64,000 nt of DNA from Olsenella sp. Marseille-P4559 (GTDB lineage: Bacteria; Actinomycetota; Coriobacteriia; Coriobacteriales; Atopobiaceae), in assembly GCF_900605015.1 (NCBI RefSeq), contig NZ_LR027573.1:142375-206374 (forward strand), given 5' to 3'. Numbering within the stretch: position 1 is the first letter of the stretch; the number at the start of each line of letters is the position of its first letter. The notes beneath the pieces were generated by a model. It was given only the letters and a program-made list of their open reading frames with translations, was not told where the DNA came from and made no database searches. Position numbers and translations under genes: made by a program. Of this stretch, positions 11,813-61,695 are shown piece by piece.

Positions 11813-12626
11813 CGGCGGCCTCCCCGCCCAGGAACGACACCACGTCGATGATGTGGTCGAAGAAGTGCTTTCTCGTCTTGGCTCCGCGGATGACCTCGTT
11901 GAACACGCGACCGTCCTTGATGAAGAGGATGCGTTTGGCATAGCTTGCGGCAAAGGAGTCGTGGGTTACCATCACGATGGTCGCGCCCGAAGCGTTCATC
12001 TGCTCGAAGCTCTCCAGGAGGTTTCTGGAGTTCTTTGAGTCGATCGCACCAGTGGGCTCGTCGGCGAGAACCAGCGAGGGCCGTGTGACGATGGCTCGGG
12101 CTGCGGCTACGCGTTGGCGCTGTCCGCCGGACATCTCGTAGGGATACTTTGCGAGGACGTCCGTGATGCCCAGGCGCGCTGCCACCTCGTCCACGCGGCC
12201 CTCAATCTGGGACGGCTCGATGCGATTGATCGTGAGGGCGAGCGCGATGTTCTCGCGAGCCGTCAGCGTGTCTAGGAGGTTGGAGTCCTGGAAAACGAAG
12301 CCCAGGCGCTCGCGGCGGAATCGCGCGAGCTGGCTCTGCTTGAGTTTCGTGATGTCCTGGCCTTCGATGAGGATGTGGCCAGCCGTCGGTCGGTCTATGG
12401 TCGAGATGCAGTTGAGCAGCGTCGTCTTACCGGATCCGGATGCTCCCATGATGCCCACGTACTCGCCTGTGCGCACCTCGAGTGAGACCCCATCGAGGGC
12501 CTTTGTGATGTTTCCCCTGGTACCGTAGTACTTTTCGACGTTTTGACAGGTAAGGATGGCTGGTGGTGAGGCTGATGGCGCTGCGTCTGACATGCCATCG
12601 ATGGCCGGGACGGTGAATGAAGCCAT
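11802..12626 (-). CDS. Bce-type ABC transporter ATP-binding protein
   Basis: 274 residues. Walker A GASGSGKTT (about residue 60), Q-loop FVFQDSNLL, signature MSGGQRQR, Walker B LVLADEPTGAID and switch His VTHD are all intact. The MacB/LolD-like subfamily (TARENIALAL, PTGAIDSKNSRNLL) matches BceA partners of FtsX permeases. The N-terminus has about 25 extra residues before the ABC fold. AAAGGA lies 8 nt before the ATG. It forms an operon with the permease, probably driven from the promoter region around 12700. Confidence 0.93.
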   Translation of the reverse strand: MASFTVPAIDGMSDAAPSASPPAILTCQNVEKYYGTRGNITKALDGVSLEVRTGEYVGIMGASGSGKTTLLNCISTIDRPTAGHILIEGQDITKLKQSQLARFRRERLGFVFQDSNLLDTLTARENIALALTINRIEPSQIEGRVDEVAARLGITDVLAKYPYEMSGGQRQRVAAARAIVTRPSLVLADEPTGAIDSKNSRNLLESFEQMNASGATIVMVTHDSFAASYAKRILFIKDGRVFNEVIRGAKTRKHFFDHIIDVVSFLGGEAADAR

Positions 12627-12781: not shown

Positions 12782-13042
12782 AAGAAATCGCAAAACTACA
12801 CACAGAATTGAGGTTTTGAAGACCTCCGGTGCACTTGAGCGATAAGTGGGAAGAGACCCAGGCATCTCCGCAATGCATCCATTCAACACTCAAATGGGAT
12901 AACATAATTATCCACTTGCCGATGGAAACCTATCGCTTGCCGGAAGTATCTCCAGGACAATTAAATAACCTTCATATCCTCAATTTTGCGTGTAGTTTCG
13001 CCAATCTCAGCTTCACGGAGTACATCGTGATGGGAGGAAGCC
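12782..13042. other. AT-richer intergenic stretch before the endonuclease-like gene
   Basis: Base composition is clearly lower in GC than the flanks (for example AACATAATTATCCACTTGC at about 12900). No coding frame with known resemblance is seen. It probably holds the promoter of the gene at 13043 and may mark acquired DNA. Confidence 0.4.
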
Positions 13043-14059
13043 ATGCAAAAGAGGTTGATTGTCGCCGGGGCTACTCTCGATCGAGCAATATCTGCCATGC
13101 ATACGGGAGATTTGCTCTACGAACGCTGCCGGATAACTACTCTTCCCCCGAACTCATGCGTCAACACCCGCGAGGAGTTCGACAAAACAAGCCTTATTAA
13201 TCTGCGATGGCTGTTGGATCCCGCAGAGAATGAGCCTGTCGAGCTGTTCGTGAGTTCACCGAGCGATCGAAATAACAGTGGCGCAACCAAGACCTACCTC
13301 CTCCCACAGCAACTGCCGATGGGTAGCCTGGTCCGACTAAGGGATAACATCTTCACGCTTTCACCCGAGTGCTATTTTGTGTGGAAATGCCGCCAAATCC
13401 CAGATTTGCCATCACGGCTCATGCTCTGCGATGAGCTGCTTGGCACCTATGCCCGGAAGATACCAGGCGAAAGAGGCTCGGGGTGTGCGTATTTCCTGGA
13501 GCCTCTCACCACCGCGCGAAGATTACACGCCTTCCTTCGGCGAGCCGGCGGCATGCGGGGTGTACGACCAGCGCGCGACACACTTCGCTGGGCATTGGGA
13601 AACTCCTTCTCGCCGATGGAGTCCATCCTCGCAACAGTCATCATCCTTCCCCAACGCTATGGCGGGTGGGGGTATCCGCAGCCTACTCTCAATCCGACGC
13701 TGGTTGTACCAGCCGACAAGCGACACCTCACCCATGGGGATAGCTATATGCCAGACATCGCATGGGCTGAGTTTCTGCTGGACGTCGAGTACGACAGCCG
13801 AGAGCGTCACGACACGCTGGCCGAACGACGCAAAGACGAAATCAGGAAGAGCGACATAGAAGCCTTGGGATACAAGGTCATTCCCGTCCACCCCAATGAC
13901 CTGACAGACTTTGCCGAGGCCGAGAGGCTTCGCTTGAAGATTGGGGAACATCTTGTTGGCCACAAGGGAAGGACGATGCGTCAGCACCTCAAGAGGCTTG
14001 ACACACCAGAGCTTGCAGAGGGCCGCCGCAGTCTGTTAGAGATGCTACTGCACGGATAG
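13043..14059 (+). CDS. Hypothetical protein with restriction-endonuclease-like C-terminal half
   Basis: 338 residues with a clear ribosome site (GGGAGGA, 4 nt before the ATG). The C-terminal half resembles the DUF559/Vsr type of PD-(D/E)XK fold: helix with Glu (SPMESILATVIILP), then PDIAWAEFLLDVEYDS, then RKSDIEALGYKVIPVHPNDL. The usual catalytic Lys is not obvious, so it may be inactive or a binding module. The N-terminal half (about 1-150) is unrecognised. The gene sits in opposite orientation between the transporter and two-component halves of a Bce-type module, with an AT-richer leader, suggesting insertion. Confidence 0.7.
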   Translation: MQKRLIVAGATLDRAISAMHTGDLLYERCRITTLPPNSCVNTREEFDKTSLINLRWLLDPAENEPVELFVSSPSDRNNSGATKTYLLPQQLPMGSLVRLRDNIFTLSPECYFVWKCRQIPDLPSRLMLCDELLGTYARKIPGERGSGCAYFLEPLTTARRLHAFLRRAGGMRGVRPARDTLRWALGNSFSPMESILATVIILPQRYGGWGYPQPTLNPTLVVPADKRHLTHGDSYMPDIAWAEFLLDVEYDSRERHDTLAERRKDEIRKSDIEALGYKVIPVHPNDLTDFAEAERLRLKIGEHLVGHKGRTMRQHLKRLDTPELAEGRRSLLEMLLHG

Positions 14060-29276: not shown

Positions 29277-29615
29277 TCACATGAACTTCTTGAAGAGGCG
29301 CATGACCTCGTCGACAACCTCGGTGTCGCCCGCCCGAATGCGCTCGACCACACAAGTCTCAAGGTGGTCCTGCATGACCTCGCGACTTACGGCCCTCACC
29401 GCCGACTCGACGGCGGCGAGCTGGGTCAGGACGTCACCGCAGTAGCGGTCCTCCTCCACCATCGCCTTGATGCCGTTGAGCTGCCCGATGGCTCGGTTGA
29501 TGCGGCAGGTGACGTCGTGTTTGAGCTCCTCGGAGCGTGGCGTCTGCTTCTTGCGGCAGCACTCTTTGGCGTCCTGGACGGCAGATAGCTCTACCCGGGC
29601 ATCTGATGGTTCCAT
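29277..29615 (-). CDS. csoR: CsoR-family copper-sensing repressor
   Basis: 112 residues, all helical DUF156 fold. The CsoR Cu(I) ligand set is present: Cys in DRYCGDVL and His and Cys in [11 protein letters not shown]. An extra N-terminal CC pair (AKECCRKK) is outside the core. In the family, Cu(I) binding releases the repressor from DNA. AAGGAGGGGAGTCTCAA precedes the ATG. It sits directly upstream of copA, with palindromic sites in front. Confidence 0.92.
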
Positions 29616-29648: not shown

Positions 29649-29700
29649 CATACCCCTCATGGGCATCTATCACTGCGTACAATATACCCCTCATGGGTAT
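29649..29700 (-). promoter_or_regulatory. Two CsoR-type operators upstream of csoR-copA
   Basis: ATACCC-CTCAT-GGGTAT (29684-29700) is a perfect 6+6 palindrome of the TACCC/GGGTA type bound by CsoR. A second, slightly altered copy (ATACCC-CTCAT-GGGCAT) lies near 29650-29665. They lie 35-85 bp upstream of the csoR start, where they would cover the promoter. Confidence 0.75.
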
Positions 29701-29777
29701 GAACCAACCATGACGGCGGTGGATTGTGGAGGGGTTGGCAGCAAGCCGCCTGATCCGTGACGGGTTTGAGAGGGGCG

Positions 29778-30130
29778 CGGCGGGAGGGTGCGCTTGGCGT
29801 ACGCAGGATGGGCTTTTGTTGCCAAGGTAGGGTCTTGGGGGCTCCCCCCTGGCAAAAGGCCTGGATTGTGCGTACGCACCACCAAGGGTTTCTGGCGTCC
29901 CAGTCGCGTTTCCCCAGTTGGGCGAGAAGGCCATGGCAGCACTTCGGGGTTGTGCGTACGCACGACGGAACTTCTCTGCCACAAAAGGCCTCTTGAGCCA
30001 CCTATTTGGCGGAAGGTCTTACGTATGCGTACGCATAACAGCCTCTTCTTGCCTCATCAGGAATCCTGGAACATCCTCTCGGCAGAAAGACGTACTCGTG
30101 CGTACGCACGGCACGGCATAGCTGCCCTCA
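29778..30130. repeat. Phased palindrome array 1 (five GTGCGTACGCAC-type sites)
   Basis: GCGTACGC is centred at 29800.5, 29873.5, 29957.5, 30030.5 and 30103.5: steps of 73, 84, 73 and 73 bp. Most copies extend to GTGCGTACGCAC. Between sites, TTCT-x-GCC about 9 nt after one palindrome and GGC-x-GAA about 9-15 nt before the next form a second dyad, so each unit is a palindrome within a palindrome. Half units close both ends. No reading frame here looks like a real protein. It fills the gap between the csoR promoter and the end of the DUF2130 gene. Confidence 0.85.
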
Positions 30131-30152: not shown

Positions 30153-31421
30153 CTACTCCACCGAATCCGGCTCGACGGCGTTGTCGGAATCCCCCTTATC
30201 CGCACGCACCTGCGCGGCCTGCTCGAAGGCAGCCTTCATGGTCTTGTTCCCGCGAGTCAAGCGCCTAATGGTGAGGTCCTCGGCTTTGTTATTGGCCAGA
30301 CGAAGCTGGTTCTCGGACTTGGTGAGACTCTCCTTCACCTTCTGGAGTGACGCAATGGAGCGGTCAATCTGCTCGATTGCCTCGCCAAAGCGCTTGGAGG
30401 CCTGCTCGTAGTTACGCCCAAAGCCCTGCTTGAACTTCTCGAGCTTCTCCTCGAAGTTGGTGACGTCGAGGTTCTGCTGCCGCACCTCGGCAAGCTCGCG
30501 CCGAGCGGAGACGGCATTCAGGCCCGCGTTTCTCAGCAGGCTAATGATGGGCAGGAAGAACTGCGGCCGTACCACGTACATCTTGGGATAGCGATACGAG
30601 ACGTCCACGATGCCCGCATTGTACAGCTCGCTCTCGGGCTCGAGCGTGGAGACGAGAACCGCATACTCGCAGTGCTTGTTACGGCGGTCGCGGTCGAGCT
30701 TGGCAAGGTGGTCCTCGTTACGTTTGCGGTTGACGGAGCTGTCGTCCTCGTTCTTCATATCAAACATTATCGAGACAATCTCGGTACCGGACTCGTCGCA
30801 CTCCCTAAAGACGTAGTCGCCCTTGCTGCCATCGACCACATCGTTGTCCTTGTGGAACTCCGCGCGCGGGAAGGCCATCATGCGCACCTTGTTGAACTCG
30901 GACTCGCAGTGCTGCTCGAGAGTCTCGCCGATGAGCTTGACCGAAAGGCGCGAGCGCTGGTTCTTGATGCGCTCGATCTCGTCTTCGCGGTCGCGGATCT
31001 CCTGGTCCTTGTACTTCTCCTGCTCGACCAGTCGCTGGTTGAGAACGGCGATCTCTTGATCCTTCTTGGCCGAGACCTCCTGAACCCGGGACTGCAGCTC
31101 CACCAGGTGCTTGTCACGTTCGGCGGTGGCACGGGTCACAGCAAGCTCCTGCGCACCCTTGGCCTGCGCCTCCTGAGAGCGAAGCTGCTCGGTGAGGCGA
31201 GCTATCGAGGCGTCCCTCTCGGCAAGCTGGGCACGCAGGTCCCCCTCGGCCTTGGCGCGCACCGCCTCCACCGAAGCAGCCTCGCGCTGCTCCAGAAGGG
31301 CGCGCTGCTCGTCAAGCTGACGCTTGAACTCGGCATCGCGGACCTGTTGCAGGATCTGCGCGTAGCCCGCCTCGTCTACCTGGAAGACCTTTCCGCAGTT
31401 AGGGCACTTTACCTCAGCCAT
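30153..31421 (-). CDS. DUF2130 coiled-coil protein
   Basis: 422 residues. N-terminal zinc-ribbon half MAEVKCPNCGKVFQVDE, then about 140 residues of coiled coil (Gln/Glu/Arg-rich), then the DUF2130 core: GETLEQHCESEFNKVRMMAFPRAEFHKDND, SIMFDMKNEDD, KHCEYAVLVSTLEPESELYN and YVVRPQFFLPIISLLRNA. The core has a nuclease-like look (DxK in FDMKNED), but no function is established for the family. AGGAGGTCCC precedes the ATG. Stands alone. Confidence 0.85.
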   Translation of the reverse strand: MAEVKCPNCGKVFQVDEAGYAQILQQVRDAEFKRQLDEQRALLEQREAASVEAVRAKAEGDLRAQLAERDASIARLTEQLRSQEAQAKGAQELAVTRATAERDKHLVELQSRVQEVSAKKDQEIAVLNQRLVEQEKYKDQEIRDREDEIERIKNQRSRLSVKLIGETLEQHCESEFNKVRMMAFPRAEFHKDNDVVDGSKGDYVFRECDESGTEIVSIMFDMKNEDDSSVNRKRNEDHLAKLDRDRRNKHCEYAVLVSTLEPESELYNAGIVDVSYRYPKMYVVRPQFFLPIISLLRNAGLNAVSARRELAEVRQQNLDVTNFEEKLEKFKQGFGRNYEQASKRFGEAIEQIDRSIASLQKVKESLTKSENQLRLANNKAEDLTIRRLTRGNKTMKAAFEQAAQVRADKGDSDNAVEPDSVE

Positions 31422-61419: not shown

Positions 61420-61695
61420 GGCAAGAACCACCTGATCTGCGTATGCAGAACCCTGGATTTTTGACATTTCGGACCCATAACGGGGTCCGTCTGGCAGAAA
61501 AGTCCGGTCGTGCGTACGCACCAACCCCATTTGCCGCCAGGTCCCTCCCAGCCAACTGGGGAGACGCACAGACCCTGTCAGAGAGGTCGGGTTGAGCGTA
61601 CGCACAAGTGGAACTTCTCGCCAACCAGGCTCCCCGGATGGTCTCCCGCGGCAGAGCGGCCCAGTCGTGCGTACGTACAATCCCACCACTGCCAC
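61420..61695. repeat. Phased palindrome array 2 (four GTGCGTACGCAC-type sites)
   Basis: GCGTATGC or GCGTACG[C/T] is centred at 61442.5, 61515.5, 61599.5 and 61672.5: steps of 73, 84 and 73 bp. The first and last sites each have one substitution. The inter-site dyad TTCT-x-GCC / GGC-x-GAA is present (for example GGCAGAA 61493-61499). The array is the reverse complement of array 1 unit by unit; the 84-bp unit shares CCAACTGGGGA-ACGC. It fills the space upstream of the nad promoter. Confidence 0.85.

Follow-up and report, generated by a model that had tools for sequence, protein, structure and literature searches.

The window analysed here is a stretch of 64,000 nucleotides (C1:142375-206374) from the 3,085,620-base (3.09 Mb) genome of Olsenella sp. 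Marseille-P4559, a member of the Atopobiaceae. An intergenic region of this window, lying between a csoR-like gene and a coiled-coil gene, contains five copies of the palindrome GCGTACGC spaced 73, 84, 73 and 73 bp centre to centre (array 1, Table 1), as determined by reading the sequence and by scanning both strands. The array ends about 24 bp from the stop codon of the adjoining coiled-coil (DUF2130-like) gene. These positions and spacings agree to the base with the preliminary description of the locus; its first site retains only GCGTACGC. The second dyad that had been described inside every interval was recovered as TGCCA/TGGCA arms located 20-24 bp from each palindrome centre. The remainder of the spacer, said to vary, does so: because the variable positions are close to background composition, the spacers can be regarded as greatly diverged with their lengths kept. 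A second array with spacings of 73, 84 and 73 bp (array 2) is located in the same window.

Two further features of the window were recorded. A pair of nearly identical ATACCCCTCATGGGYAT palindromes, separated by 34 bp, lies upstream of the csoR-like gene and of a copper-ATPase-like gene and likely represents CsoR-type operators. The window also contains a gene of the family described below, a paralogue that is not cognate to these arrays; it has an imperfect inverted repeat upstream, and no matching copy of this repeat was found downstream of it.

Table 1. Coordinates of the repeat arrays and associated genes, in window positions except for the cognate gene
Feature	Position	Strand	Details
Imperfect inverted repeat upstream of paralogue	12793-12998		arms 29 nt, loop 148
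Paralogue of the cognate gene family	13043-14059	+	338 aa
csoR-like gene	29277-29615	-	
Palindrome pair	29650-29700		ATACCCCTCATGGGYAT
Array 1, whole	29775-30130	none	intergenic
Array 1, site 1	29797-29804	none	degenerate, core GCGTACGC; site score 13
Array 1, site 2	29868-29879	none	GTGCGTACGCAC; with TGGCA/TGCCA arms, dyad at about 29850-29897
Array 1, asymmetric core of 84-bp unit	29906-29921	+	GCGTTTCCCCAGTTGG; family consensus GCRTTTGSCCAGTTGG
Array 1, site 3	29952-29963	none	GTGCGTACGCAC
Array 1, site 4	30025-30036	none	ATGCGTACGCAT
Array 1, site 5	30098-30109	none	GTGCGTACGCAC
Coiled-coil (DUF2130-like) gene	30153-31421	-	
Array 2, whole	61438-61678	none	
Array 2, sites	61438-61449, 61510-61521, 61594-61605, 61667-61678	none	first site CTGCGTATGCAG
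Array 2, core of 84-bp unit	61552-61567	-	GCGTCTCCCCAGTTGG on the minus strand
Cognate gene	C1:97936-99024	-	362 codons; ribosome-binding site

A dispersed population of phased dyads

Sites matching TGCGTACGCA numbered 130 across the genome, compared with 3 for a reversed control pattern, and 72 pairs of them were separated by 71-86 bp centre to centre, compared with 0 in the control. Pairs of this kind were present in 2 of the 140 genomes of the family. Using a weight matrix, for which the maximum on reversed sequence was 6.3 and most accepted sites scored 30-60, we identified at least 45 dispersed arrays, each with 2-6 dyad sites (the count of about 45 was read from fetched genome stretches, where some weak or solitary sites may have been missed). 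The 116 intervals within them fell almost entirely into two classes, 72/73 bp (64 intervals) and 81-85 bp (51), with a single interval of 61 bp. All 45 arrays were intergenic and none lay within a gene; based on approximate gene calls, they were closer to gene 3' ends, that is, to the stop codon of the upstream gene, than to gene starts. The orientation of the core relative to neighbouring genes was random in this genome (same, 12; opposite, 18), and in other genomes the counts were 16 and 22, respectively. No gene type was found to be common to the neighbours of this genome's arrays, and these neighbouring genes look like ordinary core genes. At one locus, a 527-bp array-bearing intergenic stretch occurs twice with 99.8% identity (L009:4886-5412 and 12035-12561), the two copies lying some 7 kb from each other around WXG100-like (type VII secretion) genes.

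The suggestion that array 1 is a modular repeat element is thus borne out by the dispersed arrays with 73/84-bp modules elsewhere in the genome: these copies keep the spacing instead of being randomly spaced, coding sequence was found in none of the 45, and IS ends were not observed. A CRISPR, which consists of identical repeats and unrelated spacers accompanied by cas genes, had been dismissed in the preliminary description and is excluded here by structured spacers with arms and core in common, by dispersal over 45 loci and by the ordinary neighbouring genes.

Each site is a 48-bp dyad with the consensus TGGCAGAAA-N6-GTCGTGCGTACGCACGAC-N6-TTTCTGCCA, derived from 101 sites. The 73-bp unit differs internally from the 84-bp unit, which carries an asymmetric core, GCGTTTGCCCAGTTGGGCGAGAAGG. 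The dyad is conserved column by column and without covariation; pairing between the arms of 37 73-bp and 30 84-bp units in this genome equalled the shuffled expectation. Since covariation is lacking, we read the dyad as a probable protein site on double-stranded DNA, in line with the protein-binding array proposed initially. The roles then suggested for such an array (segregation, replication control and nucleoid organisation) find no support in these results.

We searched about 85,000 species with a generalised site pattern, and the sole match was Olsenella porci (G043). This species has two palindrome types with spacings of 71-73, 84/85, 94, 103-105, 113-115 and 124 bp, corresponding to 7 to 12 helical turns, and the one exception is a 140-bp interval between two array types. 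The six length classes fall on whole turns with p of about 4.5e-4 against random lengths, which upholds the whole-turn spacing first proposed for array 1. The 84-bp core of O. porci differs (GTTTTCCCAGCTGG) and was therefore overlooked by exact core searches. The type B palindromes of O. porci, TGTGAGYRCTCACA (TGTGAG..CTCACA; L057-L066), have the same arms and no identified cognate gene.

Sister species of the genus have no arrays, except for one (G118) with a single array. This array lies within about 1.5 kb of sequence that matches this genome at about 99% identity, compared with about 88% in the surroundings (L027:3801-5301 versus L067), a difference that indicates horizontal transfer. The shared stretch contains a glycosyltransferase-like gene together with the array. 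At the same loci (the csoR and rplL-rpoB slots), sister species have either no array or another palindrome type, and such empty or differently filled slots are as expected of competing repeat families. A further REP-like palindrome, TGAGACAAAGGGACAGTCCCTTTGTCTCA, is intergenic in this genome and in sister species (L093, L116, and the flanks of L014, L017 and L075).

The repeats of congeners were missed by 10-mer enrichment over 100-kb stretches of their genomes and were revealed by a scan with the 84-bp core. The core GCRTTTGSCCAGTTGG was present in 44 of the 140 family genomes and 15 of the 35 genera, with 1 match for the reversed control. Across 398 genomes sampled from the class, only 1 of those outside the family contained its 17-base form. 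The core sits within inverted-repeat arms that vary by species and locus: an arm score of at least 10 was obtained around 69 of 91 cores, where the 95th percentile of the control was 9. Cores in other genomes were intergenic in 86 of 88 cases. In one Atopobiaceae genome with 25 exact cores (G041), the conserved core recurs in every copy of tandem repeats measuring about 60-125 bp (L205 and L201).

A gene family often flanked by its own repeats

The candidate cognate gene is located about 44 kb outside the window, measured from the window start, between two GTGCGTACGCAC arrays. Clustering of the proteins encoded around the cores yielded one recurring gene family. Of the 140 family genomes, 132 encode between 1 and 16 members each, and when 120 genomes were sampled from the order, 97 had the gene family. 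In many members, one inverted repeat is present on both sides of the gene. In a strict two-flank test, using flanks of 900 bp trimmed at the profile match and control genes from one genus, 24 of 51 family genes passed (under half), compared with 1 of 415 controls, and this single control was the cognate gene. When the 7 genes that had led to the family were removed, 18 of 44 passed versus 0 of 414 controls. The same 18 of 44 own flank pairs compare with 20 of 1,892 swapped pairs (1%), and among the swapped passing pairs listed (11-mers), the joined genes have similar arms. Outside the family, 6 of 15 loci passed, some of them possibly by chance.

O. porci has two genes of this family, one with GTGTGTACACAC arrays on both sides and the other flanked by a third dyad. 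Among the fetched relatives, the best match of this genome's protein was the GTGTGTACACAC-flanked O. porci protein (37% over 345 residues, 226 bits; next match, 161 bits). Because matching proteins have matching sites in these two genomes, protein and site similarity go together. At the sequence level, the gene-array pairing in O. porci is the one that had been predicted.

Profile (Pfam) searches with the protein gave only weak DUF559/MTES_1575 similarity, and no match was obtained with PADLOC, with the PDB searched by sequence, or with Foldseek at E <= 0.001. The structure model (pLDDT 82.3, pTM 0.82) has a C-terminal domain like that of the homing endonuclease I-Bth0305I (Z 10.3 over 93 residues, rmsd 2.1) and like VSR (Z 8.1). 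Its N-terminal region is similar to AbiEi residues 67-195 at Z 7.7, near the level reachable by unrelated folds, and this match corresponds to the C-terminal domain of AbiEi, with the winged helix not covered. E192 and D237 are invariant in 29 members, and the catalytic-type residue E248 is replaced by N in many paralogues. The modelled protein thus resembles an AbiEi antitoxin-like domain joined to a VSR/I-Bth0305I nuclease fold.

Possible origin of the arrays

We put at roughly 70% the probability of a first reading, in which array 1 belongs to the dispersed, non-autonomous copies of a palindromic element that is specific to this lineage and has its cognate protein encoded by the gene lying between two such arrays. 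A broader proposal, for which we see about even odds, is that the genes and arrays represent a new class of selfish or domesticated genetic element. In this proposal, every member of a many-paralogue family of AbiEi-like/VSR-fold nucleases would govern a palindromic array population of its own, and these populations, with a conserved core and arms that diverge fast, would spread between genes by nuclease-driven copying and not by a transposase.

Under the first reading, the 48-bp dyad would be bound as double-stranded DNA by two AbiEi-like/VSR-fold monomers, one on each 24-bp half site composed of half the palindrome plus TTTCTGCCA. AbiEi and Rv2827c are known to bind 23-bp inverted repeats that occur in pairs next to the respective gene, in its promoter (PMC7319586), and the 24-bp half sites would fit binding of this type. 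Whole-turn spacing would place neighbouring complexes on one face of the helix and allow assembly along the phased dyads. The VSR-like domain might then nick or cut DNA, leading to copying or recombination of sites into slots behind genes. The gene with its flanking arrays would be the autonomous source, and paralogues may have diverged in arm sequence, giving every one of them a separate set of sites to recognise, with the central core remaining common to all. The presence and absence of arrays between species suggests that they are mobile. However, the spacers are heavily diverged, yet the arrays are absent from sister species, and recent copying alone therefore appears insufficient. It also counts against this explanation that no target-site duplication and no fixed element end were seen, as do the AbiEi match outside the winged helix, the replacement of E248 in many paralogues, the pass rate below one half in the strict flank test, the type B arrays of O. 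porci that have no identified gene, and the empty Foldseek result.

A different possibility, which we consider unlikely, is a regulatory or architectural one: the protein would be an AbiEi-like autorepressor, the arrays would be selected operators, insulators or nucleoid sites, and the nuclease fold would serve only as a binding scaffold. Such a role would be consistent with the closeness of the 24-bp half sites to the 23-bp inverted repeats of the AbiEi and Rv2827c promoters (PMC7319586), with the spacing being kept though spacers diverged, and with the loss of E248 in some paralogues. However, operators would not readily explain why the arrays are closer to gene 3' ends than to starts, or why no gene type is common to their neighbourhoods. 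Furthermore, sister species have no arrays, or have unrelated palindromes, at the same loci, suggesting that the host is not in need of them.

The arrays might instead be dispersed repeats moved by another enzyme, such as an IS transposase or a RAYT, that also landed beside nuclease-like genes. Interspersed palindromes of other bacteria have been linked to transposases (PMC3116915), and a separate REP-like palindrome (TGAGACAAAGGGACAGTCCC...) exists in these genomes. Nevertheless, shared flanks are a feature of this gene family alone (0 of 414 controls), flank similarity tracks protein similarity between species, and neither conserved ends nor target duplications were seen; this reading is already disfavoured and we regard it as improbable. 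Least credible of all is a structured RNA with transcribed hairpins and pairing between neighbouring palindromes: single units fold with z of about -4 to -7, and in other species the arms form near-perfect inverted repeats, but such folding scores are trivial for self-complementary palindromes, the core is randomly oriented relative to genes, an Rfam scan of the window gave no match, and the absence of arm covariation in this genome, with pair counts equal to the shuffled expectation, led us to reject the hairpin reading.

Comparison with known systems

MITEs and other IS derivatives have fixed terminal inverted repeats and target-site duplications. In the present arrays, ends vary and flanks share little, and no target duplication was seen in a comparison of loci that yielded no precise empty site. 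The modelled C-terminal fold is shared with the EDxHD homing endonuclease I-Bth0305I and the VSR endonuclease (Z 10.3 and 8.1), whereas the gene here was not seen inside an intron or intein, and palindromic arrays take the place of one long asymmetric target. With the AbiE type IV toxin-antitoxin system, the gene family shares the AbiEi-like N-terminal region of the model and the proximity of repeats to the gene, since AbiEi binds pairs of repeats of about 23 bp next to its own gene (PMC7319586). In contrast to AbiE, the protein appears to have an extra nuclease-fold domain, and the sites are found on both sides of the gene and genome-wide. The neighbour lists, whose genes were profile-scanned in part, contained no recognisable AbiEii-like (DUF1814) toxin gene adjacent to the cognate gene.

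BIME/REP mosaics of enterobacteria combine palindromes and fixed spacers as mosaics behind genes. The arrays described here share this mosaic arrangement, but they consist of other sequences, have 73/84-bp modules only and involve no RAYT. According to PMC3733652, REP/BIME elements are defined by a palindrome of 20-40 bp whose foot carries a GTAG- or CGTC-type tag, and no such tag is present in the consensus of 101 sites.

The closest parallel in layout is the REPIN/RAYT system, in which palindromic repeats are scattered in extragenic DNA and the gene is flanked by its own, lineage-specific repeat (PMC3116915). Similarly, the present genome has 130 sites in 45 arrays, 45 of 45 intergenic, with the cognate gene between two of them; own repeats flank 18 of 44 family genes compared with 0 of 414 controls, and the repeat sequence is specific to each gene lineage. 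On the other hand, the protein resembles AbiEi and a VSR-type nuclease and not a Y1 (HUH) transposase, and the sites are 48-bp dyads with whole-turn phasing, no covariation and a core common across paralogues. Because the protein is unrelated to RAYT, we do not file the system under REPIN/RAYT despite the same layout.

Searches of the open-licence PMC literature for Olsenella palindromes, the sequence itself, phased BIMEs, DUF559 with inverted repeats, and broader terms returned no prior description, although one may exist elsewhere. Given this, together with the unrelated protein and the conserved core with gene-specific arms, we suggest that this is an undescribed gene-and-repeat system. It would provide a testable function for a large set of uncharacterised proteins, dozens of natural protein/DNA-site pairs for the study of recognition co-divergence, and, in the phased dyads, a defined substrate for ordered nucleoprotein assembly. 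The interspersed palindromes of bacteria have so far had one well-argued cause, the RAYT transposases; the present system, resembling REPIN/RAYT in layout and apparently built on an unrelated family of nuclease-fold genes, would, if true, represent an independent origin of such palindrome populations.
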